Source: Aphrocallistes beatrix (taxonomy: Eukaryota; Porifera; Hexactinellida; Sceptrulophora; Aphrocallistidae). From it: a stretch of DNA of 64,000 bases. The position numbers and the translations under genes are program-made. The notes beneath the pieces are model-generated. The model made no database searches. It had not been told where the DNA came from and saw only the letters and a program-made list of their open reading frames with translations. Positions 2,786-45,803 of this stretch are shown here, one piece after another; positions within the stretch are counted from its first letter, which is position 1; every line of letters starts with the position of its first letter. The stretch spans positions 3,410,001-3,474,000 of the forward strand of contig OY725505.1 in NCBI GenBank assembly GCA_963281255.1. The letters are read 5' to 3'.

Positions 2786-5700
2786 ATGCGTAAGCTGATA
2801 GTGGCGCTTTTAATTCTATCAAATTGCGCCACCATTTTTGGCGCCATTACATCTCGTGTCGACACAATTCACACTCCGCGACCGCAAGAAATCCGATTCG
2901 ACGCTAGAGCTGAGGAAGAGAGGGGGAGAGGTGGTTCTAGAGTGGCACGGGACACTTCACGCCCTCGCTATGATTTCTCTAACCTCACGCCACTTTCTGG
3001 GGACGACAACGGGAACGCCTTGGTCCACTATTCAGGTGAGAACTCTAGCACCATCTTCATCGTGACACAGCGCTACTCAGGGGGTGTGGTGACACAGGCC
3101 AATCTGTGGCGTACAACAAACTACGGACGTAACTACAGTAACGAGACGGACAAACTCCCAGCTGACGCAGTGATCAACTTCTTCTACATCTCCCTCAACG
3201 CCAGCAAAATAATGTTCGCGGACCAGAAGAACAACAGACTCTACTTGTGAGTTGTGTTGTCATGGAATGTGTCCCTGCAATCTGATAGGTTTGTAAGTGG
3301 TATGGTGGAAATAGTTCGCACCAAAACCGGAAATAGTTCAACTTTCCAAAAAAGGAAATAGTTCGCAAAAAACCACACCATTAATCCTAATGATAAAAAG
3401 TCGAACTATTTCCTAAATCCGCAATTCGACCTTTTTCATTTTTCGAAAAGTCGAACCATTTCCGCATTACCTTGTAAGTAACTCATTGAGCGGTTGAGAT
3501 TCACAGATAGTAATCGTGTTATGGTAAGAAACTTAGACAATCCATCCCTTCCCTGTTATGCCACTTGTCACCTCTCTCTAACCTGGGAGGTCTGGTGCTA
3601 CTTAGATTCTATTTATAGGACAATGGACAGAGGGGAGACTTTTACGATGAAGTCACTGAACTTCGATCCTAGCTCGCTGGATTTCCATCCGAGTCTGGAG
3701 AACTCAGTGCTGGCCTTCGACGAGGAACACAAAGAGCTCTTCGTCTCTGACGACTTCGGAGAGAGCTGGGACATGATCGGTGAGTGTGACGTCATTAGAT
3801 AGGAATGTCAGACACACCTCCTCATGTCTTGTCTCTGATAGATCGGAATGTGTATCGCTACACGTGGGACACAGCTTACACTGACACAGCAGTCGTGTTC
3901 TACGAAGCTACGGACGCCAGTGGAAACACCTACCTCTTCAAATCCCAGAAGGACTCAGACGGAACACAGATTTCGACTCAGTTCGATCCTACACTTGGAC
4001 CTATCGAGCAGAATTCACTCGTTCTCACTAGTTAGTTGTTTGTTTGTTTGTTTGTTTGTTTGTTTGTTTGTTTGTTTACACATGTGTTATAACTGCCGTG
4101 TAGACGAGTACATGTTCGTGGAGGTCCAGCTGAACAGCTCAGACACGGACGGAGCTGGCGGGCTTTTCGTGTCCTATCGGAGAGCTCCGTTCTCACAGGC
4201 TAAATTCCCGCTCAAATCTGAGGAGCAGTACTTCCTGGTGGTGGACGCCAGCGAAGGACAGGCGTTAGTGGCAGTGTACCACTACGACAACCTCACCAAC
4301 CTCTACCTCTCAGACGAGAAGGGACAGAAGTACTCCCTCTCTCTGCAGAACCTCAAAGTACGTAACTCATTCTAAGCTCTTACATGCCATGTCACCCTCT
4401 CCGTCTCTAGGGCAGCGGTCTGCGTTCGTGGCAGGACCACGATGCCTCGGTGGAGCTGGTGCGGGTGGAGGGCGTGAGAGGAACATTCATAGCCAACCGC
4501 CTGGACCCCAGCTCCAACTCGCTCTACTACTACTGGGACTCATTCACGCAGATCTCCTACGACAAAGGTAGTAGCATCTCCCCCGCGTAGTTCCAGCTCT
4601 TACGCTTGTGGTTGTGTAGGCGCCACTTGGAGGTACATCCTGCGACCGGCGTACAAGGCGGACGGGACTGCGAACGAGAACTGCACCCTCTCCGAGTGCT
4701 ACCTGAACCTGAGGATCAGCCAGCCCAGCAGGCAGGGCGTCTACACCAAGGCCAACGCTCTGGGACTCATCGCCGCGCACGGAAACGCGGGGAAATACTT
4801 GAACGCGTACTGGTGGGGCAGATGGTTCTCTAACGTCTACCTCTCCAGAGACGGAGGTAAGCTTATGAACATTCCTATTGCTCTATACGGTTGTCTAGGA
4901 GTATTACGGTACAATCTGTAGGATTTAGTTGGACGGAGGAGTTCAACAGTGGAGCTTACGAGTATGCATTCCTGGACCATGGCGGCGTTGTCGTGACAGT
5001 TTCCAAGTACGCGGGGTACAGCGTCTACACCCAGAGCATCAGGTACTCCTGCACCGAAGGACTCTCCTGGGAGGATAGGGATATTGCCGAGCAACGACTG
5101 TACCCCATTGGAATGTTGACTGAACCTGGCTCTACAACCCTAGAGGTTAGCAGCAATTTGTGGTCTTGTAGTAGCATCGGAGTGTAATGCTCTAATGATG
5201 TAGAGTCTGACTAATTACGTCTGCACAGTGATGATGCATTGCATCAACTATCCACTGTCTGATTCCTGGAAAGATTACGGCAGCTTTGTCTGTGAAATGT
5301 TAATTCGATGATGTGAACATTTTCAAGTTTGCGCGTGACGTCATCTCCATCATCAGTTGATGAGACAATTCTGTTTAGAATGGCTTATGCCATACACGGA
5401 ATATAATCCTGAATATCCTATACCTTATAAGGCAATGTTCCAAGGAACTACTGTTGCTATGGACTCTGATAGAATGTTGTAGGAATTCTGTTGTGACGTC
5501 ATGCTATTCTGTAGGCGACAATATTCGCGAAGACACCAGGCACTTTCGTGGAGTGGCTGATCATCCAGCTGAACTTCAGTGTCCTCCTCAACACTACTTG
5601 CTCTCCAGACGACTACATCGACTGGGTCCCTAGCGACGCGAGGTAAGTATTGGAATGCAGCAGTTATAGCGGATGGTTTACTGTTCTATTTATAGACAAG

Positions 5701-8700
5701 GCGGTCTGTGTCTGCTGGGAGAGAAGACCACCTACGAGCGACGCAAGCCTGAGGTGTGCTGCTACAACGGGAGGGACTACCAGCGGCTAGTTAACACCTC
5801 CGTGTGTCCGTGCCGCTTCCAGGACTTCGATTGTGACTTTGGGTACGAGAAGTTGTCCACCGGGGCCCCCTGCACCCTCTCGGAGAACGTGCCCCCCCAG
5901 GGCGCTCCCCTGGACTGTCCGGAGGGCAGCAACTACACCGCCACGCTGGGGTATCGCCTCATCCCAGGGGACAGGTGCCAGGACGGAGACTACCACGCCT
6001 ACGCGCCCCGTGTGTACCAGTGCCCCATTCGCGCGCCCACCACCCTCGTCTTGACACCTCACCAGCTGTTCTACCAGGTGGGGGAGCAGGTGAACATTGA
6101 GTTGTCTCAGGGGTTCGGGTCCAAGATCTCCACTCAGTACCTGTGGTCCTATGGGGACGGACACTCCCAAACCCTGACAGGCTACGCCAACTCTCAGACT
6201 GTCTCCCACAGCTACTCACAGCCAGGAGTATACACGGTGAGTTCAGTGCCGTAATGTTAAATCTTGAACCCTGTGGACCCCAGGTAGGGTGCCACTGCAT
6301 TAGGTTGCAATGGGATGGAAACTGAGGTTTGATTGGCGAGTATTACACAGCCATTTTGAAATAAAGAATCTCGAGTTGTGTCTAAGGTGTGAAACCCACT
6401 GATCAGCTGTTCCCATTCACAGGTGTCGCTGTCTGCCTCTAACGCGGCTGGAGTTAACAACGTGTCTGTACAGATCAGCGTTCTAGAACAGGTCCATTCA
6501 TTCTCTGTGCAAGGAGTGGTATCCATGACTATCGTAGGATCCTCAGCCTCCTACTCCATTTCTGCCTTTACCGACGCAAATCAGCCACTTCCGTCCGACA
6601 CCTACACTGCCACCTGGAGGCTTAGTCTGAAGAGCGAAACAATTCTCACACTCACTGGATCCCAATTCTCCTACGTCTTCAACACTGAAGGAATCTACTC
6701 TATTACTGTGAGTGTAGAATTGTTTTTTTGGACCAGGGATATGAGATAGTTTATTGTGTCAATCTCAGGTGGAAGTAGAGAATCCAGTTTCAGATCAGCT
6801 GACGAGTTCTTACAGTGTCGTGGTGGTAGGAGTTCCCGCCACTCTCTCGCTCTCAGTTCTGTCGCCGCCCAACCAGCTGACAGCAGGACAGAACATCTCT
6901 TTCTGGTTCCAGCAGGAGTCTGAGCAGGACTACACCCACTACTCGGTCTCGTACGGCGATAGCAGTCCTCTAGTGGCAGGACTCACCTATCAGCAGGTGG
7001 AGCAGACTTCACACCTCTACGCCACTCCTGGCGAGTATAGTGTCACTGTAACAGCTCAGAACATCGCTGGCTCCGCTGCCACAACAACCACTTTCACACT
7101 TCTGGACGAAATCTCCTCTGTGTCCATCTCCCCTCCTCACATCCTGATTGTGGGACTCAACGAGGTGTTTCAAGGGAGCTACGTTCTCAAATATGGCACC
7201 GACGTATCAGGTTGTTTACATTCCTGAACAGTAAACAAAGACTTGTTTACTCTGTTTATGAATGTTCCCCTCAGGCACCATTAACTATATGTGGAGTTTC
7301 AATGGAGACACTTCCACATCCTCTCTGGACCCGATCTTCATCAAGCGCTTCCTCACACCGGAAACTGTCTCCGTGTCTCTCACGGTGACCAATCAGGTGT
7401 CGTCAGAGCATGGGACCACCCAGGTGCAGGTACACCCCGCGTCGGATAACATCCGGTTGCAACAGTCCGACATGAGCTATGCTGTGAACACTCTTGTCAC
7501 ACTCACACTCAACTCCACTGACAATGTCCAGCTACCCACAGAAGGTGTCGTGTACCAGTGGGACCTAGGGGAGGGGGGTAGGTATCTGCTCAACACCTCG
7601 CTTCCTTACATCACATTCCAATACCCCACTACGGGTGCTAAGCTGGTGAAGGTGTTCTCTGTGTCGGATTCTGACGGGAGTGTGATAAACCACGTGGTGA
7701 GTGGCACAGTCCACATTCTCTCCTCTCTGCAAAGTGTGACCGCTTCCTACGTGTCCGGGACCACAGCAGAGAGCGCCATGGTGAACTTCTCACTCACGGA
7801 CAGCACGGGGGGGCCTTTCAGCGGTTCCGTATCCCTCCTCCTCTCCGATGACACCAATAACAAGTGGACCTATAGCGGACAGGAATTTGAAGTGAGTAGA
7901 TGCGTGAGTGAGTGATGATAATACTTAATTCTGATTGGGTATCTAGGTGACAGATGGGTTCCTCCCCCTATTGCTGTCCCCCCTGACCAAGTACACCGTG
8001 TACAAGATCCAAGTGTCGCTCTACAACGCCGTATCGCGTCTGGAGAGACAACTAGAAGTGTCGCGTGTGAAGGAAGTGGATCAGACCGTGGTGGTGACTC
8101 TGGAGTGGGTCAGCATTCCTGAAGGATTCAGTGTGAACGAGTGGCAGGAGAAACTGGAGGACACAGTGTCGCAGCAGATCATTGACACCTTCAAAGTGGA
8201 GGAGTGGAGACTGAGTGTGGATGTCAGCGTAGAGGAGAACCAGCAGTACCTTGTTTATGTCAAGGTAACCAATAAACAAACAAACAAACAAACATAACTC
8301 TTGTGAATGAGGTTACTTTGATATTGTTTACATCCTTGTTGTTGTTTACTTAGCTGCTACCTAACAACATGACGGAAGAGGGCATCGACGAGTTGATGAC
8401 GTCTCTCCACGACATTTCTGATTTCTACAATTCCCAAGAATCTGTCAGCGTTCCTGGCAACCCACCCATTCCAGTCACGTCTGCTCAGATTAACGACGTA
8501 AGTGGTAGAAAGGAATGTAGATACATGGGGCTGATAATGTATACAAAATAACTGTATATCCCGTCTTATTCAAACTCAACTTGATTACCATAAACATTGA
8601 GATTTGTCTCCTTCACACGTTTTGTTTCACACCTTACGGTGGGTCCATATTTGGGCATAGTTCACACTTACTGTTTCACACCTTACGGTGGGTCCATATT

Positions 8701-9070
8701 TGGGCATAGTTCACACTTACTGTTTCACACCATACGGTAGGGGTCCGTCAGCACAGTCCACGAGTACACGGTGCTGGGCGTGGCCATCGGAGTGCCGGTC
8801 CTCCTGCTCGTCTCCCTGCTCGTCATTCTCCCGCTCATCGTCTGCTCAGTCATTTACGCGCGCAAGTACCGGAGAGTCTCCCACGCCTATTCCCGCCTGC
8901 GGCAGTCGCGCGCCAGTAACTTCACCTTCACGCAGGACGGACTGGACGAGGACGACGACGAGGCGCCAGTTCTCCTGAAGAGCGACTCCAAGACCAAGTT
9001 CTCTCTGGAGGAGAACTTCGAGCAGGGCAGCTTCATGAACCCCAGCTCTGAGAAGGACTCGGATCTGTGA
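2786..9070 (+). CDS. SORCS: SorCS-like VPS10-domain sorting receptor with PKD repeats
   Basis: Type I sorting receptor of the sortilin/SorCS family. Fifteen exons: 2786-3246, 3619-3779, 3842-4030, 4104-4357, 4411-4567, 4620-4856, 4922-5145, 5515-5642, 5696-6236, 6423-6707, 6769-7210, 7275-7891, 7947-8264, 8354-8497 and 8741-9070, which join to 1495 codons. Seen in order: signal peptide (1-20), possible RVAR propeptide site (52-55), VPS10 propeller with Asp-box-like turns (TMDRGETF, SDDFGESW, CTEGLSW), 10CC cysteine-rich region, PKD-type domains (YGDGHSQ, SYGDSSP), SorCS membrane-proximal region, one membrane helix and a tail of about 65 residues with a possible ExxxLL signal (EAPVLL). Vertebrate SorCS proteins are roughly 1150-1200 residues, so this one carries extra ectodomain. 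Intron 1 contains a MITE. It is convergent with Notch-ligand copy A. Confidence 0.88.
3291..3479. mobile_element. MITE, family 1 copy 2 (reverse orientation)
   Basis: The element is 3299-3471 (173 bp), inside SorCS intron 1, and is the reverse complement of the element at 1281-1451 with scattered differences. It begins GGTATGGTGGAAATAGTTCG and ends CCATTTCCGCATTACC. The octamer TTGTAAGT flanks it on both sides (3291-3298 and 3472-3479). That this duplication differs from the one at copy 1 shows two independent insertions. Confidence 0.88.
4031..4077. repeat. (TTTG)n microsatellite in SorCS intron 3
   Basis: About ten uninterrupted TTTG/GTTT units follow the exon 3 donor site. Similar TTTG runs lie at about 5-60, 8275-8293 (reverse complement, AAAC), 9113-9135 and 38312-38338. 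They are almost all intronic or in transcript ends. Confidence 0.9.
8624..8740 (+). repeat. 49-bp tandem repeat of the SorCS exon 15 splice-acceptor region
   Basis: Two near-perfect 49-bp units run into a third partial unit that contains the real 3' splice site. Each full unit carries TGTTTCACACCTTACGG followed by GGGTCC; the third reads TGTTTCACACCATACGGTAG and then GGGTCC, where exon 15 begins. The upstream units have GGTGGG in place of the functional GGTAGGGG, so they lack the acceptor AG at that position. The unit also carries a CArG box (CCATATTTGG, 8645-8654 and 8694-8703). Confidence 0.85.
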
Positions 9071-13135: not shown

Positions 13136-16100
13136 TTAGAGGGGGATTTTGTTCTCGAACACCTCGTGTTTCTCGGAGATGATGGCGGTCTTGAAAATCT
13201 CCTTGGAGGTGTCACCGATTAGAGAGTTGTAGGCTGGGGGATCCATTATCGGGAAATTCTCCGTCCCCGCGAAGAGCGGGTCGTCTTGTTCGGCTATGAG
13301 GAGGGGGTTCAAGGACATTCGTCTGGTGCCATCGTTTCGTCTCCGTTGCCTCTTCTTCTTCGCGCGTAGATACAGGAGGCCGAGCAGGAACCCGACTAGG
13401 ACGCACCCCAGCAGCGTCAGAATGACCCCCAAACTCAGCCCCCCCAAAAGCCCCGTGACCGAGTTCTCCACTCCTGGGATTATCTGTAGAGATAGGATTG
13501 CAATGAAGTTATATGCCACACTACGTATCACTATTCACAGCAGTTCTCCACTCACTGAGTTAGTTGAAATGGCTGCTTCTCCCTGCTCGACACATCCCGG
13601 GACACTATTTTCACACCTGCAGTAGTAGGAGTCCACCCCCTGGTAGCAGGTGGCGCCGGGGGTGCATGGTGAAGAGGCGCAGTAGTTAATCAGCTGTTCG
13701 CAGAAAGTCCCCGTGTACCCAGGGTCACAAACACACAGTGCCTGCTTCAGATCTTTAGAAACTCCCTAGCATGGAATGGGCTGTTATAGCATACCATATA
13801 AGGAGTTGTGATACCGCGTCTTACCATATAAGGAAACGCTTAACTACCTTGCATTCGCCCTTTTGATAGCAGGAATCGCGTCCGCAATCTCCGATCTTCT
13901 CACAGAGTGGTTCCACATATCCGGAGGGACACTTGCACGTTTGCGCGCCATCCTGCACCACACAGATCCCCCCGTTCAGACACGTGTTCACATCGCACAG
14001 ATTAATCACATTTTCACACCTCTCACCATCGTAGCCTCTCTCACAGTCGCAACTAACGCACACTATCAAAGCACTGTACACCATGGATATGTTGTGTGGG
14101 AGAACTCACATGAATGAGTCCAGACTGTCTGTACAGTTTCCTGCGTTGCCACAAGGTGCTGACGCACAGTCGTCGATATCATCGCGACACGTATCCCCTG
14201 TGTACCTGGTGTCACAAGCACACCGGTATCCGGTGGCAGAGTTGAGATCGTTGATGCACTGTCCGTTCCCACAGTCCCCGGGTTCCCTCAACACCTCACA
14301 CACATCCACCGGGACCTCACACATGGAGCCAGTTAGGAAGGGCGGACATACGCAGCTCCCGTCCTCACACAGGAAAGGATACTCACATGATATCTACAGT
14401 GAACTCGTGTAACGGACTTGTCAACAGTCGATACAGTCAGGTATTTAAACTCACAGTGGCACAGGAGGGTACTAACTCCGAGCAGTTTGCTCCGCTGAAT
14501 CCATTTGCGCACATGCACCTACAACAGAGGTGTTAAAATATTCACACACGCCTGATTAATCATATTTCCACGAGCATACCTGGTGGTGAACATCTCATTG
14601 TGACAGCTGCCTCCATTCAGACATGGGTCATGCATTGCGCAATAGTCCAACTGTACGAATGTGTCGCACAGCTGACCAGAGTAGCCTGTGTCACACGAAC
14701 AGGTGTAGCTACCCGGTGTGTTCACACACATTCCATTCTGGCACATGTGTAGACCCGTAGCACACTCGTCCACATCGTCAGCACAAGTGGTTCCTGTGAA
14801 CCCGCCAGAGCAGTGGCAGTTGAATGCGTCTACTCCGTCGGTGCAGTTAGCTCCGTTCTCACACGCACCCTGGCAGTCGTCTATGTTGACACTGCAATCG
14901 CCCCCGGAGTATCCACTCTCACATTGGCACACGTAGCTGCCATTGCCATTGCCACTGGCCACACAGCTCCCGAATCTACATGTAGACTCGCAGGTACACA
15001 GACTCGTGTCAGTACAAGCTTCCGTGCAGTTCTGTCCCATGTAGCTAGAGTTACAGACACAGACATAGCTAGCTATCCTGTCATGACAAGTTCCGTGCTC
15101 GCAGGGCATCTGGTCGCACTCATTGATTGTGTGATGGCAGTCCTTGCCTGTGTATCCGGATTCGCAGTTACACTTGTAGTCTCCTATCTAGAATTAGCAA
15201 TTTACGAGATAGCGTATCAGCTGTGTTCTGGAATGTTCTGGAATGTTCCGTTGCTTACCATGTTATCGCACGTCCCATGGGCACAAGGGTTGCTCAGGCA
15301 GAAATCCACTTGCATGTCGCAGTACCTCCCCGTGAACCCAGACTCGCAGGAACACCGGATATCCGTGCTGGTGTTGGCGCAGGTTCCACGACTACACAGC
15401 ACATCCGGTGTCTGGCAGGCCCGGAGTTCACAATATTGGCCCCTTTGTCCGGGCGTGCACACACAAACATAGGTGTTGTTGCCCGTGGGTGCACAGGTGC
15501 CACTGTTCATGCAGGGGTTTCCATTCAGCGCGCACCAGTCCCTGACACCACAGTCTGTGCCGTCGTACCCAACTTTGCAGCGACATTCGCCTGGTACCTA
15601 TGATGTAAGGAATTTTTCAGTTTTAAGATTTGTTGCATGCATATATACATACATACATACTTGTGTAAGGAGTGGTTACCTGGCAGAATCCTCCAGTGAG
15701 ATCACAGCCCATACGTGTGACACATTCACACCTCTCTGCTACCTCCACGAACCCGTTCTCACACTCACACGTCCTCGTGACGTTATTGCAGGTCGCGTGG
15801 CTAGGGCAGGAAGGAATGCAAATCCCAGTGAGACAGTGGACTCCTGTCCAACCTCCCAAGCACCGCTTCTCTCCCTCATCTGTGCACTCGTAGTGTCCCG
15901 AGCTGTTATCTCTATAAATAGCGAGCTTTGAGTCGTTTTGGCAGTGGAAGAGTCAATTTAAACCAATCATTTAGTTTGGGAATTTCAACAAAGTTACTCG
16001 TTGAGTGGCTCATAAGTATTGGGCCACATTGACTCAAATGTTATTTGCAACTGTTTGGGTTCTCAATTGAAAAGACTAGTCACAGTACTGCAATACATTC

Positions 16101-29747: not shown

Positions 29748-31194
29748 ATGGCTTCAGCCGGACAAGAAAGCACGAAACGATCGCTGCCTCAGGACGAACT
29801 TCCGTCCTCGGACGAGAAAGCAGAGTCCGCGAGTAAGAAACAGAAAGTGGACGCCCCCGCCCCGGCGGTGCCGCACAACCAGCCGGACTCCACCGAGCGA
29901 GACCCCGGCACGAGCGAGGAGAGCGACGACGAGAGCGTCGACCTGGAAGGAGAGTCCGACGAACTGGTGGAGGGGAAAGGGAACGAATTCGAAGACGGAC
30001 ACTCGGGGGACCCGCTGGAGTTGGTAAGTGCATCCATGGTTCACACTTGTCCATTTTAACTCCTATGCACGATGATGAATTGCGTCTGGTGGCACAGGTT
30101 GTAGTTTATTCATTGGGTTGAGCAATTTATTTGAAGTCTTCAATTATGACGAGTGTAGATTTCGATTCAGCAATCAGTAATCAATATTAGACACCCATTG
30201 GCCCCTGAATTCTTAGATATTCCCACGAAGTGTTCGCTAGCAGCGATACGAAAGAGCGCGTAGCGTTCTTGTTAGTATTACTCACGTCCTTACTCACGTA
30301 TATCCGTACCAGGTCCTAGTCAGCAGTGCCAGACGATTTGTTTATCATCTTCTTGCCACATCCTGCAAATGTTCATGCTAAATTAAAGAAATATTTTACC
30401 ATGTTAATGCCAAAAGGTTCTTATCACATTTATGCCAGAAGTAAAGGTTCTTATCATATTTATTCCAAAAGTAAAGGTTCTTATCATTTTTATGTCAAAA
30501 GTAAAGGTTCTTAACATGTCTATGCCAAAAGTAAAAAGTTCTTGACACGTAGGGCCGGCTACCTTTCATGAATATTCACACTGAATAGCTCCGTAACTGA
30601 CAATCACACTTTCCATTGCTCTTTCCTACGAAAATACCCTGCGTAATCCTGCCCATTCCAATCTGACGGGTCTGTGTCTAGGGAGATGAGGACGACTCAG
30701 ACGTGGACGGAGACGGGTCGGGGGACGAGTCGGAAGAGGAGCTGCCCATCATCGAGGGCCAGGAAGTGGAGCTCGTCAAGGGCGCCTCGGAGCCCCCCGC
30801 GCAAGCGGACGGCGCCAACAACGTGGACGCGGGCAGCTACCTCCTGCGCGGGAAGGACGGACGCGTCTTGAAGCTCGCCATCTCCGAGACGGCCATCTCT
30901 GAGATCCACAACGAGTGCCTATCGCTCTTCGACTCGGACCGTCTCCCGCACATCCGCGCCTCTGACCTGGAGGTCATCTCGGACACGGAGTCCGAGCTGA
31001 CGGTGCACGCGAGCGTGGTGGGCGTGTCCGCCTCCTACCCGGCGAGGAAGTACTCGGAGGAGGAAGTGGCCGCTCTGTCCAAGGCCGGGAGTCTGCCTTC
31101 ACACCTCCTCGCCTTGGAGAAGGACTGGTGCGTGATTGAGGTGGAGGGCTTCCCTATGCTGTTCGGCTCGAGAGACCTGATGCCAGAGGACTAG
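29748..31194 (+). CDS. Unrecognised acidic, probably nuclear protein
   Basis: Two exons, 29748-30023 and 30682-31194, join in phase 0 to 262 residues. The first half is disordered and highly acidic, with a basic patch (SKKQK) that could be a nuclear localisation signal, then Asp/Glu/Ser runs (EESDDESVDLEGESDE; DEDDSDVDGDGSGDESEEE). The second half looks folded: LLRGKDGRVLKLAISETAIS, then HIRASDLEVISD and KDWCVIEVEGFPMLFGS. I do not recognise a family. Acidic-tract proteins of this kind include histone chaperones and chromatin or RNA-processing factors, but no diagnostic motif is present. The single intron contains a 30-bp tandem repeat. Confidence 0.75.
30403..30542. repeat. About 30-33-bp tandem repeat in intron
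   Basis: Roughly four units of the type AAAGGTTCTTATCA followed by TTTATGCC and AAAAGT, in the sole intron of the acidic-protein gene. The units stay open in one frame for a while, but lie between a clean donor and acceptor and are judged intronic. Confidence 0.8.
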
Positions 31195-31343
31195 AGTTAG
31201 CGGCAGTAGTAGCCGTGAGACATTTTGTAGCACTCTCCGAGTAATGAATGCTATGCTATGCCATTATAATAATTGCCCTTACTCTCCTCTCGCTTTTTAC
31301 TGGCGTGGGTGGTTTATTGTTTGTTTGCACGTGATTAGCTACC

Positions 31344-33127
31344 ATGACCACTGAGGGCGCAGACCTCTTCAATCAGCTGATTTACCCTCAGAAGCAACCA
31401 ACCAATCAGTATCAGGGACTCACTATTGCGCCTAGCAACGCGCTTGCGCAAGGGAATGTGCTCCTCAAGATTACTTGCGGAGAAGACATCCGGTGTAGGT
31501 AGGTTAGCATTCCCCAACACCTTTAAAGGAGCTAGCACCTCCTTATAAGGAACTAGCGTTTCTTTATGAGGGGCTAGCAACTAATAAGGAACTAGCGTTT
31601 CTTTATAAGGAGCTAGCAACTCCTTATAAGGAACTATCGTTTCTTTATAAGGAGCAAGCAACTCCTTATAAGGAACTAGCGTTTCTTTATGAGGCGCTAG
31701 CAACTCCTTATAAGGAACTAGCATTTCTTTATAAGGAGCTAGCAACTTGTAAGAAACTAGTAATCCTCACAAGGCGCTAGCAACTCCTTATAAGGAACTA
31801 GTAATCCTTATAAGGAGCTAGCAACTTGTAAGAAACTAGTAATCCTTATAAGGAGCTAGCTCCTTATAAGGGCATGCGTGATAGAGCGTGCTAGGTCCGT
31901 GTCGGAGGACTACGGGTGGGAGGACCTGCAGTACACCATTCAGCAGATGTTCGCAGCGGAGATCTCGCCGAGAGACCCCATCCTGCTGAGGTTCAGAGAC
32001 GCGGACGGGGATTGGGTGACGATGGCCAGCGAGGACGAGTACAACCTCGCCAAGCAGCTCTCTCCCAAGCTGTACATCTGCGTGTCGCAGAAGGAACAGC
32101 CGAAGCGGAACCTCAACATTCCTCAGGTATCCATAGTGACACGCCTGTGTTTAGGTATGCATTGATTGTGGATTATCTTTTCAGTTTAGGAAGGCGCTAG
32201 TGCGTCTGAGAGAAGAGATTAATTCCATTCTGGAGTTCCTGCCGACACAGGGGACCAATGAGGAGACACCTGACACTTCCCCTGCCACCACTCAGCCACA
32301 GGACTCCAAGAAGAAGCAGAAAGATCCTCCCGCGTCCGACGCCCTCATGAACTCCGTTCTAGGTAAGGCAGCGATGACGTCATTGCTCGTACTCTGTCTC
32401 TGTCTTAGGACTCCAAACTTACTCAGCACTGAATTGCCTATGTTTATGTACCCCTCCCCTCCCCTAACTCGGATGTGTTGGCCCCTATGACGTAACTGAA
32501 CACCACTTCAACTATTGACAGTAGAGTTCCTTATTAGCAACAAACTTTGAAGTCCCGAGTGTAGATTTTGTATCGATCCCGTTCCGTTATTAGAAACATT
32601 GCATATTAGCAACCATTTTGTGCAATTCCAGTGTATCTGACCTGATCCTGTTTAGACGTGATCGAGGAGTCCAAGCCCGCCCGCACCGTTTCTCCCCAGC
32701 AGCCCCTGCCGGTCCCGCCTCCGACCGCAGAGCCGCGGCAGTACAGCAACCTCAACCTCCCGCCCAGCATCATGCCCAACAGCAGCCAGGCCTTCCCGGA
32801 GTTCGGCTTGGGGATGGACCCGCACGTCCCGCCTGCTTCCCGCGCTGCGGCCATCGCGCCCCCCGCCATCCCCGCCTCCACCCAACCCTCCGCCCCCACC
32901 ACCGTGCCCTCCGCTTCCGCTCTCTTCCACACGCAGAACATTCCATTCAACGGTACGTGTTGCTAAGTGATGTACATTCTTATTCACAGTTCCATTTTGT
33001 TTTATTTTAGTTACTTCTGATTCTATTTTTAGTTCCTCAACCCCCGTACCCTCCCCAAGGGTTCGGACCGCAACAGCCTACCTCCGTCCCCTACTCGACT
33101 CCCTACTACAACTACTACCCCAAGTGA
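31344..33127 (+). CDS. TFG: TFG-like ER exit site protein (PB1 plus coiled coil)
   Basis: TFG forms oligomers at the ER/ERGIC interface and organises COPII carriers. Exons 31344-31492, 31871-32126, 32185-32362, 32656-32952 and 33033-33127 join in frame to 324 residues. The N-terminus has an extension of about 40 residues, then a PB1 domain (VLLKITCGEDIR, split by intron 1, then LQYTIQQMF and the acidic OPCA-like DADGDWVTMASEDEYNLA). A short coiled coil follows (KALVRLREEINSILEFL, as in the TFG ELIELRNKVNRLL region). The rest is Pro/Gln-rich and ends with Tyr-rich PYSTPYYNYYPK. SEC31, its COPII partner, is also in this window. Intron 1 holds a CArG-box array, and the exon 2 acceptor lies within the last unit. 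Confidence 0.82.
31520..31871. repeat. Intronic array of CArG boxes (CCTTATAAGG) in TFG intron 1
   Basis: A degenerate tandem array of about 20-45-bp units of the type CTCCTTATAAGGAACTAGC. The perfect palindromic CArG decamer CCTTATAAGG occurs eight times, starting at 31541, 31622, 31664, 31706, 31786, 31806, 31844 and 31862, with further one-base variants (CTTTATAAGG). The last copy overlaps the 3' splice site of exon 2. Confidence 0.9.
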
Positions 33128-33338: not shown

Positions 33339-34432
33339 ATGGAAGCGGTCTCGTTTGTCTCGGAAGTTCAGTCCATGATGCACGCCTGCGGAGACGCGCG
33401 GCGGCCGCTCAGAGAGTCCGCGGCGCTGGTGGAGTCCACCGCGCGCCAGGCCGTGTGCCACCTGTGCGCAGAGGCGGCGAAGCTGTCGCGGGGAGAGGAC
33501 CTGATGGAGGCGGTGCTCTTCCTGATGCGCCGCGACAAGGAGGGCGTGCGGCACGTGCTGCGCACCATCTCCTACAAGAAGCTGGCCAGACAGGTGCAGC
33601 GCTCGCTCTCGGAGGAAGACCCGCTCTTCCCGCCTGCCCCCGGACACAAAGTGTCGCTCAACCTCTCTTTCCTCGACCCCATCGGCGCGGACCCCCGCCT
33701 GGACTTCCATTCCCTGCTCGAGGGCGGAGATGGCATGGACTCAGTCACTAGACAGAGGTGCTTGTTTACTATTGTTTACTCTTGTTTACTATTGTTTACT
33801 CTTGTTTACTACTCTTGTTTACTATTGTTTACTACTCTTGTTTACTTCTGTTTACTCCTGTTTACAGGTACGAGAGGTACGAGTCCCTCACGCGTTGCAT
33901 GGACACGGCGCAGTACCTGGAGTTCACGGAGTGCCGGGCGGTGAACTTCACGCGGAGGCCGGGCAAGTTCCGGGAGTGGGTGGGGGTGTCGGAGGAGGCG
34001 GGGAATCCGCGCCTGCTGGAGCTGCTGGGGTACCTCTGCTACGAGGCGGTGCGCAGGATCGTGGAGCTGGCGCTGGAATGCAGGGAGCAGCAGCAAGGAA
34101 TCTCGCGGATATTCGATCCCCTCTCTTCCCTCCCTCCCCATCAGCTGCCCCCCGCGTCCGCACAGGAGACAACGCGATCCCTCAAACGCCCCGCTCCCCC
34201 CACGGACTCTTCGTTCCCCCCCTTGGTCTCCACCTCCCCCCTCTCTCTGCGACCCCCCAGCAAGCGGCCCCGTCCCTCCCCGCACGCCTTCCACCCCCTG
34301 CACCCCCCGCTGCTCCCCTCGCACGTGAGGGAGGCCACTCGGCGCCTCTGCCAGCAGACGCCGCAGTTCCAACTCTTCTCGGGGCCTCGCAGCGCCGCTC
34401 CGCTCAAGAGGACCAGCGCTCTCCTCCTCTAG
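33339..34432 (+). CDS. SUPT3H: SUPT3H/SPT3, SAGA-complex histone-fold subunit
   Basis: Subunit of SAGA-type transcription coactivators that helps deliver TBP. Exons 33339-33757 and 33868-34432 join to 327 residues. The N-terminus is the TFIID-18/SPT3 histone fold (residues 1-95): VQSMMHACGDARRPLRESAALVE, then LMEAVLFLMRRDKEGVRHVLR. The second exon has the conserved SPT3 C-terminal region: RCMDTAQYLEFTECRAVNFT, KFREWVGV and LELLGYLCYEAVRRIVELAL. A Pro/Ser-rich tail follows. The intron between them is built almost wholly of TTGTTTACT units. Confidence 0.93.
33758..33867 (+). repeat. Intron made of TTGTTTAC (forkhead-type) repeats
   Basis: This 110-bp intron contains about ten TGTTTAC words in units of the type TTGTTTACTAT, TTGTTTACTC and TTGTTTACTACTC. 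TTGTTTAC matches the consensus of FoxO-class forkhead factors. The array runs from 6 bp after the donor up to the acceptor, which itself reads TGTTTACAG. Confidence 0.9.
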
Positions 34433-34565
34433 CTCTAGACTCTTAGACCACTTCCTTATAAGGAGTTTAGTTATGTTACGCTATTTGGTTTAATTTCCTT
34501 ATAAGGAATGAACTTCATCTCTCCTCAGTGCTATTTATAGCTCGTATCGCCATTAAGGAATAGAG

Positions 34566-35832
34566 ATGACGTCACGGATTCTGTTCGTGCTATTAATAGC
34601 CTCTCTGCTGTCTCCCGCCAATCAGACGCTGTCTCGTTCTGACCGGAAGTCGCGCGCCCCCAGAGACACCTGCACCCCCGGAGACCCGGTCTGTGACAAG
34701 GCCGCGCGGGTACCGCTCTCCCTGGATACCACAGTGGTGGATAGGAATTTGGTGCAGGTGCAGGTGTCATATGAGAGCATCCTCCGAAACCACAAGGCTT
34801 ACTCGCGCGCGCATACCGGAATCAAATCCTTCTCCATGGCAACCACTCTGGCATTCGTAACGCCGTGGAACCGGAAAGGCTACGAGACAACCGTCACATT
34901 CGCGCAGAAGTTCTCCCACGTGTCCCCCACATGGCTCCAGGTGTCGCCAGCTGGGGAGCTGATTGGTCGCGAGGATGTGAACAGGAAGTGGCTCAGGAAA
35001 CTGATGAAGGCCAATCCCGAGGTGCGAGTGGTGCCGCGGCTGATCTTCCACGAATGGACGCCAGGCCAGTTCGACGCGTTCCTGTCCAACCAGCAGCGCT
35101 GCCTGCAGCTGGTGAGTGACGTCATCTCCCTGCTGAAGGAGGCGGGCCTGCACGGAGTCGTGCTGGAGCTGTGGAAGCAGATGCCGTCCAGCGCTTTCTC
35201 CTTCTTCCTCGAGTTCCTGCGGGCTCTGTCGGAGGGATTCCGCGCGGAGGAGTTCTACCTGAGTCTGGTGGTCCCGCCCACCTCTCCGGACCCGGAAGCG
35301 CCGCCGGAGGGGAGCTTCAACTCCTCCCACTTCTCCCTGACCGGTCCCCTCCTCGACTCCGTCGTCCTCACCACCTACGACTACCCGCTCATCACCAAGC
35401 GCCCCGGCCCCTCCGCGCCCCTCCCCTGGATGGAGGCCTGCGTGCAGGTGCGACTAATCAGGCGCCAAACGCGCTCTTTCCAGCTCTGTTCAGCCATTCT
35501 ATTTTTAGATGCTGTCCCCTGACTACCAGATGCGCCACAAGATATTGCTGGGCGCCAACCTGTACGGCTACGAGTTCACGCGGGAAGGCCTGCAGCCGCT
35601 GCTGGGTCCGCAGTACCTGGAGCGGCTGAGGAAGTTGAAGCCGAACATCCTGTGGAACGATCAGGTGTCGGAGCACTTCGTCCAGGTGGACAACCCCTCG
35701 GAGCCGCGCATGATCGTCTACCCCACCCTCCTCTCCCTCCAGACCCGCCTACAGCTGGCCGAAAGGCTGTCCGTGGGGGTGGCGCTGTGGGAGGTGGGGC
35801 AGGGCCTGGACTACTTCTACGATCTGTTTTAG
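34566..35832 (+). CDS. CHID1: Chitinase domain-containing protein 1 (CHID1)
   Basis: Secreted or lysosomal GH18-fold chitinase-like lectin, a partner of stabilin-1 in vertebrates. Exons 34566-35447 and 35509-35832 join to 401 residues (human 393). Seen: signal peptide (FVLLIASLLSPANQT), VQVSYESILRNHKAYS, VTPWNRKGYE near the barrel start, KFSHVSPTWLQV, then VVLELWKQMP in place of the catalytic DxxDxDxE motif of active chitinases, and TTYDYP. The absence of DxxDxDxE implies no chitinase activity, as in known CHID1. The exon 2 acceptor is CTATTTTTAG. CRE (TGACGTCA) overlaps the start codon and two CArG boxes lie at 34454 and 34497. Confidence 0.94.
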
Positions 35833-36455: not shown

Positions 36456-39400
36456 ATGAATAGCATGTTCCATCACCAGGGGATTAAGTTCGAGTCGAAG
36501 TGGAAAGACATCGCGGAGAGCGCTGGCAAGGTGTTGAGACAGGAGAACTTGAAGAGGAAGGAGTGGTGGGATCTATTCCAGTGAGTTAACACCTCCCACG
36601 GATCAGCTGATCGTTCAGTTACTCATGCATTCGTTTAATCGTGTAGAGATATCAGCAACGTGTGCAACTGGGATGAAAAGGGCGCGCACAAAATCCACGA
36701 CGAGCTCCGACAGCTGATCAAGGGTCACATCAACCAGATTCAGGAGGTGTGCCTGCCATTCTAACGTTCAACCTATGCTGTTTAATCTATGCTGTTTAAC
36801 CATGCTGTACGATCTCTAGCGTGTGCTGTCCAACGTGGACGAGGCCAGCTTGCTGTCGGCCTACATCCGCGAGTGGACGCGGTTCTTCCAGCAGTGCAAC
36901 TACCTGCCGCTGCCCTTCCGCGTGGTGGAGGACGCCATGCGCAACAAGATGGCCGTGGCCACCATGAAGAAGGACGTGGACCAGTCGCTCATCTACAAGC
37001 TGATGCTGCAGGAGTGGAACGACAACATCTTCCAGTCCATCCGCGACAAGATCCACGGCGCAGCCATGCGCCTCGTGGAGATGGAGCGGGCCGGGGAGTC
37101 CTTCGACAAGCAGCTCGTCATCGGCGTCCGGGAGTCATACGGTAATTTCATGACGGAGATCTATGCCCATATATGGTGTTCTTAACTCCCGTCTGTAGTT
37201 AACCTGTCCACGGACCACACGGACCCGCTGCGCATCTACAAGGAGCACTTCGAGAGGAAATACCTGGAGAGCACGGACAACTACTACCGGGCCCACGCCT
37301 CCTCCTACCTCGCCGCCAACGGCGTCCTTAACTACCTTAAATACGTGCGTCCTTTCTCACCGCTATTCCAGCTGCTACGTATCAGCTGTAGCTCCCAGCT
37401 GCTACGTATCAGCTGTAGCTTGACTTAGCGCGCCATTCTATTCGCTAATTCTCTTATCTCAGAATGTGTCGTGTAGGCTGATGGGAAGTTGGCGGAGGAA
37501 GAGCTGAGAGGGAAGCAGTACCTCGAAACTCAGAAATCCATCAAATCTGTAGAGCTGGTAAGTATGCTATGCTATGCTATGCTATGCTATTCTATACGAT
37601 GTGATAACTGATAATTATGCGCTGCTATTTCTGTATTTCAGCTGAAAGAAACGCTGGTCAGGTGTTTGGTGGACGCGTTCAAGGATCCGATTCTAGCTGA
37701 GTGTCCCAGACTCATACGAGAGAACAACATAGAATGTGAGTCTGAGTGCAATGCATAGATAAGATCTCAGCATTGTTGTTTTGTTGTTGTTTACTTGTTT
37801 ACTTGTTCAGATCTGCGGCTCATGTTCATGCTGATCGACAGAGTGCCTGGAGCGGTGCAGGCTATCCTCAATCATCTCGAGGATTTCATCTATCAAGCAG
37901 GCCTGGACGACATGAGGCAGTGCGCTGACACTATAACCACGGTACGTGACCATATAAGGGCATGGGTATGATATACAGGTGTTAACGGAAGTGCCTAGGA
38001 CTCGGAGAAGTACGTGGAGGAGCTGCTGAAGCTGTTCAACAGATTCTCCACCCTAGTGTCGCAGGCCTTCAACTCGGACACCAGGTTCCTCACCTCGCGG
38101 GACAAGGCCTACAAGAAGGTGGTCAACGACACCACCGTCTTCCGCATAGAGCTGCCCACCAGCCGCGCCACCGCAAATAAAACCGCGCCCGAATCGAAGT
38201 GTCCCGAGTTGTTGGCTCTGTTCTGCGATCAGCTGCTGAGGAAGAGCCCCCTCTCCAAGAAAATGTCCCCTCAAGAGATCGAAGAGAAACTCAAGAACCT
38301 CGTCAGTCGATTATTTGTTTATTTGTTTGTTTGTTTGTTATTATGATTGCCTGTATCCCCACACAGCTGCTGGTGCTGAAGTACGTGCAGAACAAAGACG
38401 TGTTCATGAAGTGAGTGCGCGTAGCGTCCGTGTTAGTTAGCCGTGTTATCTGACTGCATTGAAGGTACCACAAGTCCCACCTGACGCGGCGGCTCATCCT
38501 GGAGACGAGCGTGGACTCGGAGCTGGAGGAGAGCATGGTGGAGTGGCTGCGGGACATCGGAATGCCGGTGGAGTTCGTGAATAAACTGGCGCGCATGTTC
38601 CAGGACATCAAGGTGTCGGAGGACCTGAATCAGAGGTTCAAGGAGAACCTGCACGACATTGAGCCCTCCACGGCAGGTAAGCTCTCTCGCTCCAACTCCG
38701 CCATCCTAGCTGTGATGTCACGTGTCTGTAGAGTCGGTGAACATCAAGATCCTGAACGCCGCCGCTTGGTCTCGTGGCTCCGACTACGTTCCTGTGGCGC
38801 TGCCCAGCGAGCTGGATGAGTACATTCCTTCCATCGAGGACTTCTACAAGAAATCCCACACCGGCCGCAAGCTCCAGTGGCACCACCTCCTCTCCAACGG
38901 CACTGTAAGCTCTACCTCATTATATACTTCCTTATATGGTAGTATCATCTCCTTATACAATTCCTTATATGGTAGCGTATTTCCTTATACAATTCCTTAT
39001 ATGGTAGCGTATTTCCTTATACAATTCCTTATATGGTAGCGTATTTCCTTATACAATTCCTTATATGGTAGCGTATTTCCTTACACAATTCCTTATATGG
39101 TAGTGTATCTCCTTATATACTTCCTTATATGGTAGTGTATTTCCTTATACAATTCCTTATATGGCATTGTACTCCTTATGCACTTCCTTACATGGTAATG
39201 ATTTCCTTAGAGACTTCTTAACATGTAGTGCATTGCCTCATATACTTCCTTGTATGGCAATCACTCTATATAATATATAAAATTGTCTATTCCTCTTAGG
39301 TCACATTCCAGAACGCGATCGGCACGTTCGAGTTAGAAGTGACGACATTCCAGATGAGTATTCTGTTCGCGTTTAATCAGAGACCTTTGGATCAAATTTC

Positions 39401-43722: not shown

Positions 43723-45803
43723 ATGGCGACAGAAGGTCCCGTGCCCAGACCCAGCGCCGGGGAGGTCCAGCGTCTGATCGTATCTCTCCGCGAGCGGACG
43801 GTGCGGGAGTCCCTGCCCTACAAGGAGCTCATCACCTCGCACGGAAAGCTGATCGAGTCCAACGACACGCTAAGACGCAAGCAGAGGGAGCTGGAGTTGG
43901 ACGTGAGCGAACTGCAAGTGAATCTGCGGAATATGACGGCTGACAGTCCGGGCAGAGGGAGAGGGGAGAACTCCAGGAAGGAGGTAGCCTAAATTCTACT
44001 GATAATCCCCACTACATATCTCGTTTACTTTCTGTCTGATAATCCCACTACATATCTCGTTTACTTTCTGTCTGATAATCCCACTACATATCTCCTTTAC
44101 TTTCTGTCAGGCGAATCTGCAGCAGCGGATCATGACGCTGCGGGAGGAGCAGAACCAGGCCATCTCGCGGGAGAAAGAGAGTCTGAACAAACTGGTGCAG
44201 GCGCGAGAGGACCTGGACAAGCTGCGCGGGGACCTGGACGGGAAGGAGCAGGAGCTGACGCGCCTGAGACTCGTGAAGCAGGAGCTCCAGGACAAGCTGA
44301 AGCTGAGGGAGATCGAGCGGGAAGAGGTGTCCCGCGTCAACCAGACGATGAACGACGAGTACCAGGCCCTGCAGACCACCTGCAGCTCCCTCGAGGAGAA
44401 GCTGCGCCAGCTGCAGAAGGACAACCAGGAGCTGATCACGCGCTGGATGGACGTCAAGTCCCGCGACGCAGACAGGTAGGCACGCGTGGCATGTGAGTTT
44501 TCATGCTGTGTTGAGTGAGTTTGTTTGTAGAATCAACACGACCAACGATGCAGAGAACAAGATGCGTGTGCTGCTGAAGGAGAACGAACATCTCAAGTGC
44601 ACACTGGAGAAATCGCAGCAGCTGCAAACTAGCAATGGCGCTCCCGCAAGCGATGCGAAACCTCCCAACTTGTTCGATCACATCAAGTCCCGCGCATTCT
44701 CGCTGTCGCAGAAGACCTCCATTCTGGCCCCCCTCACCCCCAGGGACCTAGAGAGTCCCCTCTGCATGGCCGCCTTCGTCCCTTCTAAGCCTTCGCACCG
44801 GTGGGACGCACACGAGGGGAACGTGACCGCCATCCAGTTCTCGCCCTCCGGACAGCTGACTGCCACTGGCGGGGACGACAAGGTGGTGAGGCTGTGGGAC
44901 ATTACGGAAGGAAGGACACAGCTCAGGTGAGTGGACAATCTCTAACGCATGGACTGGACTATGGATAATGAAATTAATGCTGTGGCAGATCGACCTTGAG
45001 AGGCGCGAACGCCGGAATTCTCTGCATCGACTTCGATCCGCAGGAGAAACTCCTCCTCGCCTCCAGCTCGGACTTCGCGTGTCGGCTGTGGTCCCCGGTG
45101 GACAACCGACTCAAGCTCTCACTCACCGGCCACACCAACAAAGCCATGGCGGCGAGATTCATGCCGGACTCCAAGGTGATTTCCGGCTCCCACGACCGGA
45201 CGCTCAAGCTGTGGGACCTGCGCAGCAAGGCTTGTATCCGGACGATCTTCGTGGGCTCCTCCTGCAACGACCTGGTCACCGGCGAGGGCACCGGCAACCA
45301 CATCATCTCCGGCCACGCGGACAAGAAGATCCGGTTCTGGGACCCAAGGTAGTATCCTCGAATTGCTTAATTAGAATGCTCGCTCATTCCTCTACTCCAC
45401 TTCTGTTTCTAGGTCGGACATGGGCTCGAACGAGATGCTCCTGCAAGGAAAGGTGACCTCTCTGTCGCTGAGTCCCGACGGCAGCCAGCTGCTCTCCTGC
45501 TCCAAGGACGACACGCTGCGGCTGATCGACCTGAAGATGCACCAGGTGGTCGGGACGCTCACGGCCGACGGCTTCCGCGTGGGTCTGGAGTCCTCGCGCG
45601 CCTGCTTCTCGCCGGACGGGCGCCTGGTGGCCGCCGGGTCCGTAGACGGGTCGGTCTTCATCTGGAACGTGGCCAAGGCGAAGCTCGAGACGTCCATCCG
45701 CGAGCACACGAAAGAGGTGACCGCCGCCCTCTGGCACCCGTCCGGCCACTACTTCCTGACGGCCGAGAGGTCCAAGCGCTGCTTCCTCTGGTCCGAGCAC
45801 TAA
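43723..45803 (+). CDS. ATG16L1: ATG16L1, autophagy E3-like subunit
   Basis: With ATG12-ATG5 it directs LC3/ATG8 lipidation on phagophores. Exons 43723-43983, 44111-44475, 44531-44926, 44989-45348 and 45413-45803 join to 590 residues (human 607). Start ATG 43723 is chosen over an upstream in-frame GTG. Seen: N-terminal ATG5-binding helix (residues 1-45), long coiled coil (about 45-230) and seven WD40-type repeats in the C-terminal half (HEGNVTAIQFSPSGQLTATG, VRLWDIT, SGSHDRTLKLWDL, DGSVFIWN). The WD40 half is typical of animal ATG16L and absent from yeast Atg16. It is convergent with MCM3AP, 106 bp apart. Confidence 0.95.

Follow-up and report, generated by a model that had tools for sequence, protein, structure and literature searches.

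Intron 1 of the TFG gene of Aphrocallistes beatrix consists largely of repeated CArG boxes, and we judge the chances evenly balanced that it is a homotypic SRF-type cluster that arose when a genuine site was tandemly duplicated again and again, the genome treating a second type of MADS-box site likewise. The gene lies in the window, by which we mean the whole stretch of 64,000 nucleotides analysed (C19:3,410,001-3,474,000). From there 8,042 bases remain to the end of the 3,482,042-base contig, in a genome of 100.5 Mb and 28 contigs. The locus reads as follows:

31344..31498, forward strand: TFG coding exon 1, from the ATG to the donor AG/GTAGGT (phmmer to TFG chain 9e7c; open spliced frame)
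31499..31894, forward strand: TFG intron 1, 396 nt (open join; PB1 scores favour acceptor 31894)
31520..31871, forward strand: CArG minisatellite with a unit of about 21 bp and 18 cores, nine of them CArG-competent and eight exact CCTTATAAGG
31872..31894, forward strand: 23 bases from the last box to exon 2, with the likely acceptor CTAG at the end
31895..32126, forward strand: TFG exon 2, the remainder of the PB1 domain

The word CCTTATAAGG is found exactly at 31541, 31622, 31664, 31706, 31786, 31806, 31844 and 31862, spanning 31541-31871, and CCTTTAAAGG at 31520 also matches CC(A/T)6GG. Nine of the 18 core positions fit this consensus, cores being counted at up to three mismatches and a 19th position with four being excluded. 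The preliminary description was right about the eight exact copies, all of which were located, whereas the variants between them carry one, two or three changes and not one only. TRF returned periods of 21, 42 and 84 bp within 31521-31871, in the minisatellite range (units of about 10-100 bp), and most of the intron is a 21/42-bp minisatellite. It is equally a homotypic cluster, with several sites of the same type in a short stretch beyond chance; six RFX-type half-sites are also carried by the intron.

The acceptor of exon 2 is probably 31894, which lies 24 bases further downstream than the 31870 proposed earlier. Joining at 31870 (TATAAG/G), inside the last CArG box, adds eight residues to the PB1 domain; the match to Pfam PB1 then scores 26.5 bits and that to TFG chain 9e7c 21.1 bits, against 30.7 and 28.0 bits for 31894 (CTAG/G). 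Position -3 is C or T in all nine other open joins (CAG/TAG) and A in the CArG boxes (AAG), a comparison that is partly circular in that the nine were picked by eye; w37945, whose frame is not open, was excluded. We preferred 31894 because of the higher PB1 and TFG scores and the CAG/TAG ends, and the claim that the last box holds the acceptor was abandoned, since both place it outside the array. As position -3 is C or T at the other joins and A in the boxes, the spacer GCTAG seems more suitable as a cryptic acceptor than the TATAAG of the boxes. A DUF5382_N match in the Pfam search of the PB1 region fell below its cut-off and was discarded. The array had been described either as a regulatory cluster or as a minisatellite that had grown out of the splice site. 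The minisatellite stands, but growth from the splice site is improbable because the likely acceptor lies outside the array and the other intron arrays share the core and not the spacer.

Several further arrays lie in the window:

38905..39299, forward strand: cullin intron, a whole-intron CArG array of 395 nt with a 32-bp unit and eight exact CCTTATATGG
8612..8738, strand not assigned: array with a 49-bp unit, 2.6 copies and two exact CCATATTTGG
33758..33867, forward strand: nearby 110-nt intron, an array of TGTTTAC (FOX-type) in 10 copies
34454..34506, forward strand: a pair of CCTTATAAGG at a distance of 43 bp, lying some 60-110 bp upstream of the ATG at 34566 (321-aa open frame)

Close to this last ATG there are also a MEF2-type word at 34531 and a CRE word at 34567. 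The host gene of the cullin intron is supported by Pfam and an open join. A DNA search with the TFG array found similar arrays on C6, C9 (two) and C10. Pfam support places the C10 array (66 boxes) in a subtilase intron of 2792 nt and the array L008 in an aminotransferase intron of 206 nt. L007 and L012 were placed in introns by open joins alone, and a Pfam search of their flanking fragments gave no family. Further CArG arrays occur on C3 (33-bp unit, 64 boxes), on C12 (6 boxes) and on the left of C6 (3 boxes). Spacers vary among the arrays, while the main cores all fall within CCWTATAWGG except that of 8612-8738 (CCATATTTGG), and CCWTATAWGG arrays recur in unrelated introns with unrelated spacers. 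Two long minisatellites, with 24-bp and 33-bp units, were also noted near the contig end (61862-62168 and 62791-63290).

The scan of the genome for CArG clusters that had been proposed as a check bore this out, with 24 placed CArG-pair loci, and the TFG array is accordingly less unique than had been claimed. MEF2-type pairs or arrays were placed at 68 loci. The search took pairs with a start-to-start distance of 15-45 bp, so that longer periods are missed, and used the pattern read backwards as control. Close pairs of CCTTATAAGG number 69 against 9 for the reversed pattern, although 51 of the 69 come from one C10 array (3 on C3, 1 on C6, 6 on C9, 51 on C10 and 6 in the window, with two unplaced). 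Close pairs of CCTTATATGG number 61 against 0, and those of the MEF2-type CTATTTATAG 100 against 0. By comparison, GGTTATAACC, palindromic and of the same letters, forms no close pairs genome-wide, and nor does CCAATATTGG, which is also CC(A/T)6GG. Single copies of CCTTATAAGG show no excess across the genome, with 282 against 344 for the reversed word. A regular helical phasing of the 24 CArG loci (R 0.48 at 10.5 bp, Monte Carlo p 0.013-0.023) was considered and set aside as unsupported: when restricted to the 18 loci from the CCTTATATGG search it gave p 0.11-0.18, and the 68 MEF2-type loci gave R 0.25.

The motif is also common beyond the arrays. The whole window holds 33 CC(A/T)6GG against 2.62 expected, a number reached in 0 of 100 shuffles. 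Outside the arrays there are 13 against 1.60 in 100-bp local shuffles, an eightfold excess that 0 of 100 shuffles reach. Any other pair of flanks around (A/T)6 reaches at most 5 there, against the 13 of CC/GG. Nine of these 13 are CCWTATAWGG, which we take to be the form preferred by SRF, where the expectation is 1 in 16. MEF2-type words outside the arrays number 19 against 0.65 (0 of 100 local shuffles). CRE-, TEAD-, RFX-, NF-Y- and FOX-type words and CAGCTG are enriched in the window as well, by shuffle counts that include coding sequence; the names FOX, TEAD, RFX, NF-Y, CRE and MEF2 are our presumed assignments. The window was a reader's choice, and motif enrichment in it may not represent other contig ends. 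For comparison, we sampled the interior with a single 10-kb stretch from each of 19 contigs, taken at 1.5 Mb; C5 has only 33 kb. In 185 kb of it CRE is strongly enriched and TEAD and CAGCTG slightly, whereas RFX-, NF-Y-, FOX- and MEF2-type words are not. CArG boxes there number 33 against 13.2, ten of the 33 looking like one repeat (CCTATAATGG/CCATTATAGG), and CCTTATAAGG is absent from these 185 kb. The CRE word TGACGTCA occurs 17 times in the window against 0.98 shuffled (for example at 3787, 5336, 5494, 32375 and 36347) and 38 times in the interior against 2.06 shuffled and 0 for the reversed word, repeat copies possibly being included in these counts. For a list of 35 transcription factor motifs, noncoding window DNA holds 295 matches against 165 for the reversed words; the reversed word is commoner for AP1 (3 against 9), GATA (7 against 12) and Myb (10 against 24).

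Enriched motifs and arrays coincide. When the test was restricted to motifs enriched outside arrays, 6 of the 19 window arrays bear one against 0.91 expected, which 0 of 500 unit shuffles match, and in the interior 1 of 45 arrays does against 1.17 (unit shuffles). Among the six, the array at 15224 (2.5 copies, 10 bp) is weak. A broader proposition, that transcription factor motifs generally populate arrays, was dropped: all 35 motifs of the list over 64 arrays gave 27 against 17 reversed, 8 of the 27 being Myb-type.

The genome encodes the factor itself. An SRF MADS domain lies in two exons at C10:4538076-4539613, and the joined domain scores 122 bits to 1hbx; a second MADS gene reads as MEF2, an identity that we presume. 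SRF targets are expected to be a cytoskeletal set, and the named host genes (TFG, cullin, aminotransferase and subtilase) fall outside it. In mouse, CCTTATAAGG is described as the CArG box that recruits SRF at the Eplin-alpha promoter region (PMC2848193). In the first intron of the smooth-muscle gene Cnn1 it is described as SRF-bound and required for expression (PMC10805486). The Cnn1 and TFG sites share an identical 10-mer in a first intron, but Cnn1 has one box where TFG intron 1 has many (PMC10805486). A regulatory reading gains support because SRF-type sites are enriched outside the window arrays, SRF is encoded and the same 10-mer is SRF-proven in mouse.

According to the preferred reading, a genuine CArG site would have been multiplied by tandem duplication inside the intron, SRF would bind the intact copies, and the cluster would serve TFG as an intronic enhancer close to the promoter or as a platform that holds SRF. 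Sites in the germline, when bound, would be prone to tandem duplication. Judged from sequence, binding of the intact copies by SRF is likely, and a putative effect of the array on TFG regulation is possible. A wider version, which we put forward tentatively and regard as rather unlikely, is that short tandem arrays, several of which make up an entire intron, are systematically built from MADS-box sites (SRF CArG and MEF2) in a single motif-rich end segment on 18 of the 19 large contigs. Bound sites would then be turned into intronic minisatellite enhancers by a process acting across the genome.

Comparison of cores and spacers, with units aligned without anchoring on the core, gave a mixed picture. 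The core is less diverged than the spacer in four of seven arrays: TFG (0.106 against 0.234, p 0.072, the core window ranking 3 of 21), L007 (0.014 against 0.113, p 0.072), L012 (0.067 against 0.233, p 0.005) and the cullin array (0.055 against 0.118, p 0.062). It is equally diverged in the other three, namely L008 (p 0.37), C10 (p 0.30) and C3 (p 0.60). Since L007, L008 and L012 were found by their likeness to TFG and their cores thereby selected, the divergence is suggestive only. A better-kept core in some arrays would be compatible with selection acting on some of the copies. A bias towards W-to-W changes in the cores (13:14 against 20:43 in spacers, raw counts summed over six arrays) was rejected.

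A neutral intronic minisatellite seeded on a common motif is a serious rival, and one that we hold to be quite possible, if somewhat doubtful. On this account replication or recombination errors, common near chromosome ends, would copy short AT-rich intronic palindromes, and CArG would be duplicated only because it is common in that compartment. The positions of the arrays are in keeping with this. Fifteen of the 24 CArG-pair loci, four of these in the window, are no farther than 100 kb from a contig end, a zone that makes up 3.8% of the genome, and arrays with a TRF score >200 number 7 in the 64-kb window against 3 in 190 kb of interior. Changes in the TFG cores also ignore the CArG rule. Of 19 changes, 16 break the consensus (six from W to S and ten in CC/GG); simple arithmetic gives 24 breaking changes among the 30 single ones possible, and the cores do no better than this. 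The first base of the CC is altered in three cores and the second in five, and therefore many copies may be dead as SRF sites. The intron at 43984-44110 is filled by an array that bears no motif of the enriched set, and CeRep25B offers a palindromic intronic precedent (PMC4039745). Against the neutral account stand the 0 pairs of GGTTATAACC, the 0 or 9 pairs of the reversed motifs and the failure of all 500 unit shuffles to match the six motif-bearing arrays.

The chromosomal distribution has features of its own. Of the 68 MEF2-type loci, 13 are found in the outermost 100 kb of a contig and 56 in the outermost 500 kb. In the terminal 600 kb, CTATTTATAG pairs are confined to one end on each of 18 of the 19 large contigs, a pattern that is informative in the 14 contigs with at least two loci each, as if chromosomes had one motif-rich end; the window is the right end of C19. 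In 10 of the 12 contigs that allow a comparison, the terminal CArG loci are on the CTATTTATAG-bearing end; C6 is mixed and C8 opposite. GC content is 0.52 in the window against 0.33-0.41 across the 19 interior samples.

A structural role for the intron, in which a giant hairpin joins donor and acceptor and selection keeps a foldable palindromic array with CArG as a by-product, seems improbable to us. TFG intron 1 is indeed predicted to fold into one hairpin of nearly full length (MFE -177.5, z -13.0, 0 of 100 shuffles), a predicted stem that shortens the distance between the splice sites. The L007, L008 and L012 introns fold too (z -9.5, -12.5 and -7.2, with end-to-end paths of 12, 13 and 16), and such zipper stems are documented in yeast introns. 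In addition, 10 of 64 sampled arrays, TFG among them, fold far better than unit-shuffled tandems (z <= -3). However, the cullin CArG array reaches only z -3.9, the FOX-type intron z -2.0 and 43984-44110 z +0.7, and a palindromic tandem array folds on itself with no need of selection. Because these three fold little, folding is not the common denominator of the arrays; that denominator is the motif. No known RNA family reached its gathering score within 31000-32400. Palindromic short-period arrays were also seen in the interior, at L033 1491-1675, L038 1437-1716, L026 5004-5063 and L034 5676-5982 (e.g. GCTGTTAACAGC and GCGCATGCGC), and 43984-44110 is a non-folding whole-intron 36-bp minisatellite in what is presumably an ATG16-like gene.

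Insertion of a dispersed mobile or introner-like element, a hairpin with a CCTTATAAGG core placed in several genes and then locally homogenised, is very improbable: several introns do share the core, some arrays nearly touch both splice sites and symmetrical proliferating introns occur in fungi, but spacers and spacings (18 to 43) differ, cores vary within CCWTATAWGG, and the non-self DNA matches, among the best candidates scored, are at 68-78% identity and not near-identical copies.

If the intact copies were bound, the TFG locus would be a natural dose series of one intronic regulatory site, and the 24 CArG and 68 MEF2-type loci would let one ask whether such arrays are enhancers or debris from tandem duplication. 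The link between germline transcription factor binding, minisatellite birth and intron growth would then become directly testable.

Among the matches listed from the open-licence literature there was no report of CArG minisatellite introns, but several known systems resemble parts of this one. CeRep25B of C. elegans is likewise a short-period palindromic minisatellite, 75% intronic and clustered on chromosomes; it is tied to alternative splicing, and CArG is unmentioned in the description available (PMC4039745). Homotypic clusters of transcription factor sites in the fly are similar in that local duplication, over about 50 bp at most, gives rise to adjacent sites, whereas TFG has an outright minisatellite that forms the intron, with one motif repeated many times (PMC3188502). 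Tandem duplication of transcription factor sites in the germline offers the same mutational path by which a bound site may become a homotypic cluster, although the cases described are short insertions at human CTCF, NRF1 and PRDM9 sites and the TFG array is long (PMC8559717). The tandem-repeat enhancer of IFNB1, with 45 PU.1 motifs, is likewise a dense homotypic repeat of transcription factor sites and shows that such arrays can function; it is human, of PU.1 type and repressed by MORC3, whereas the TFG array is SRF-type and intronic, with a putative function (PMC13373173).
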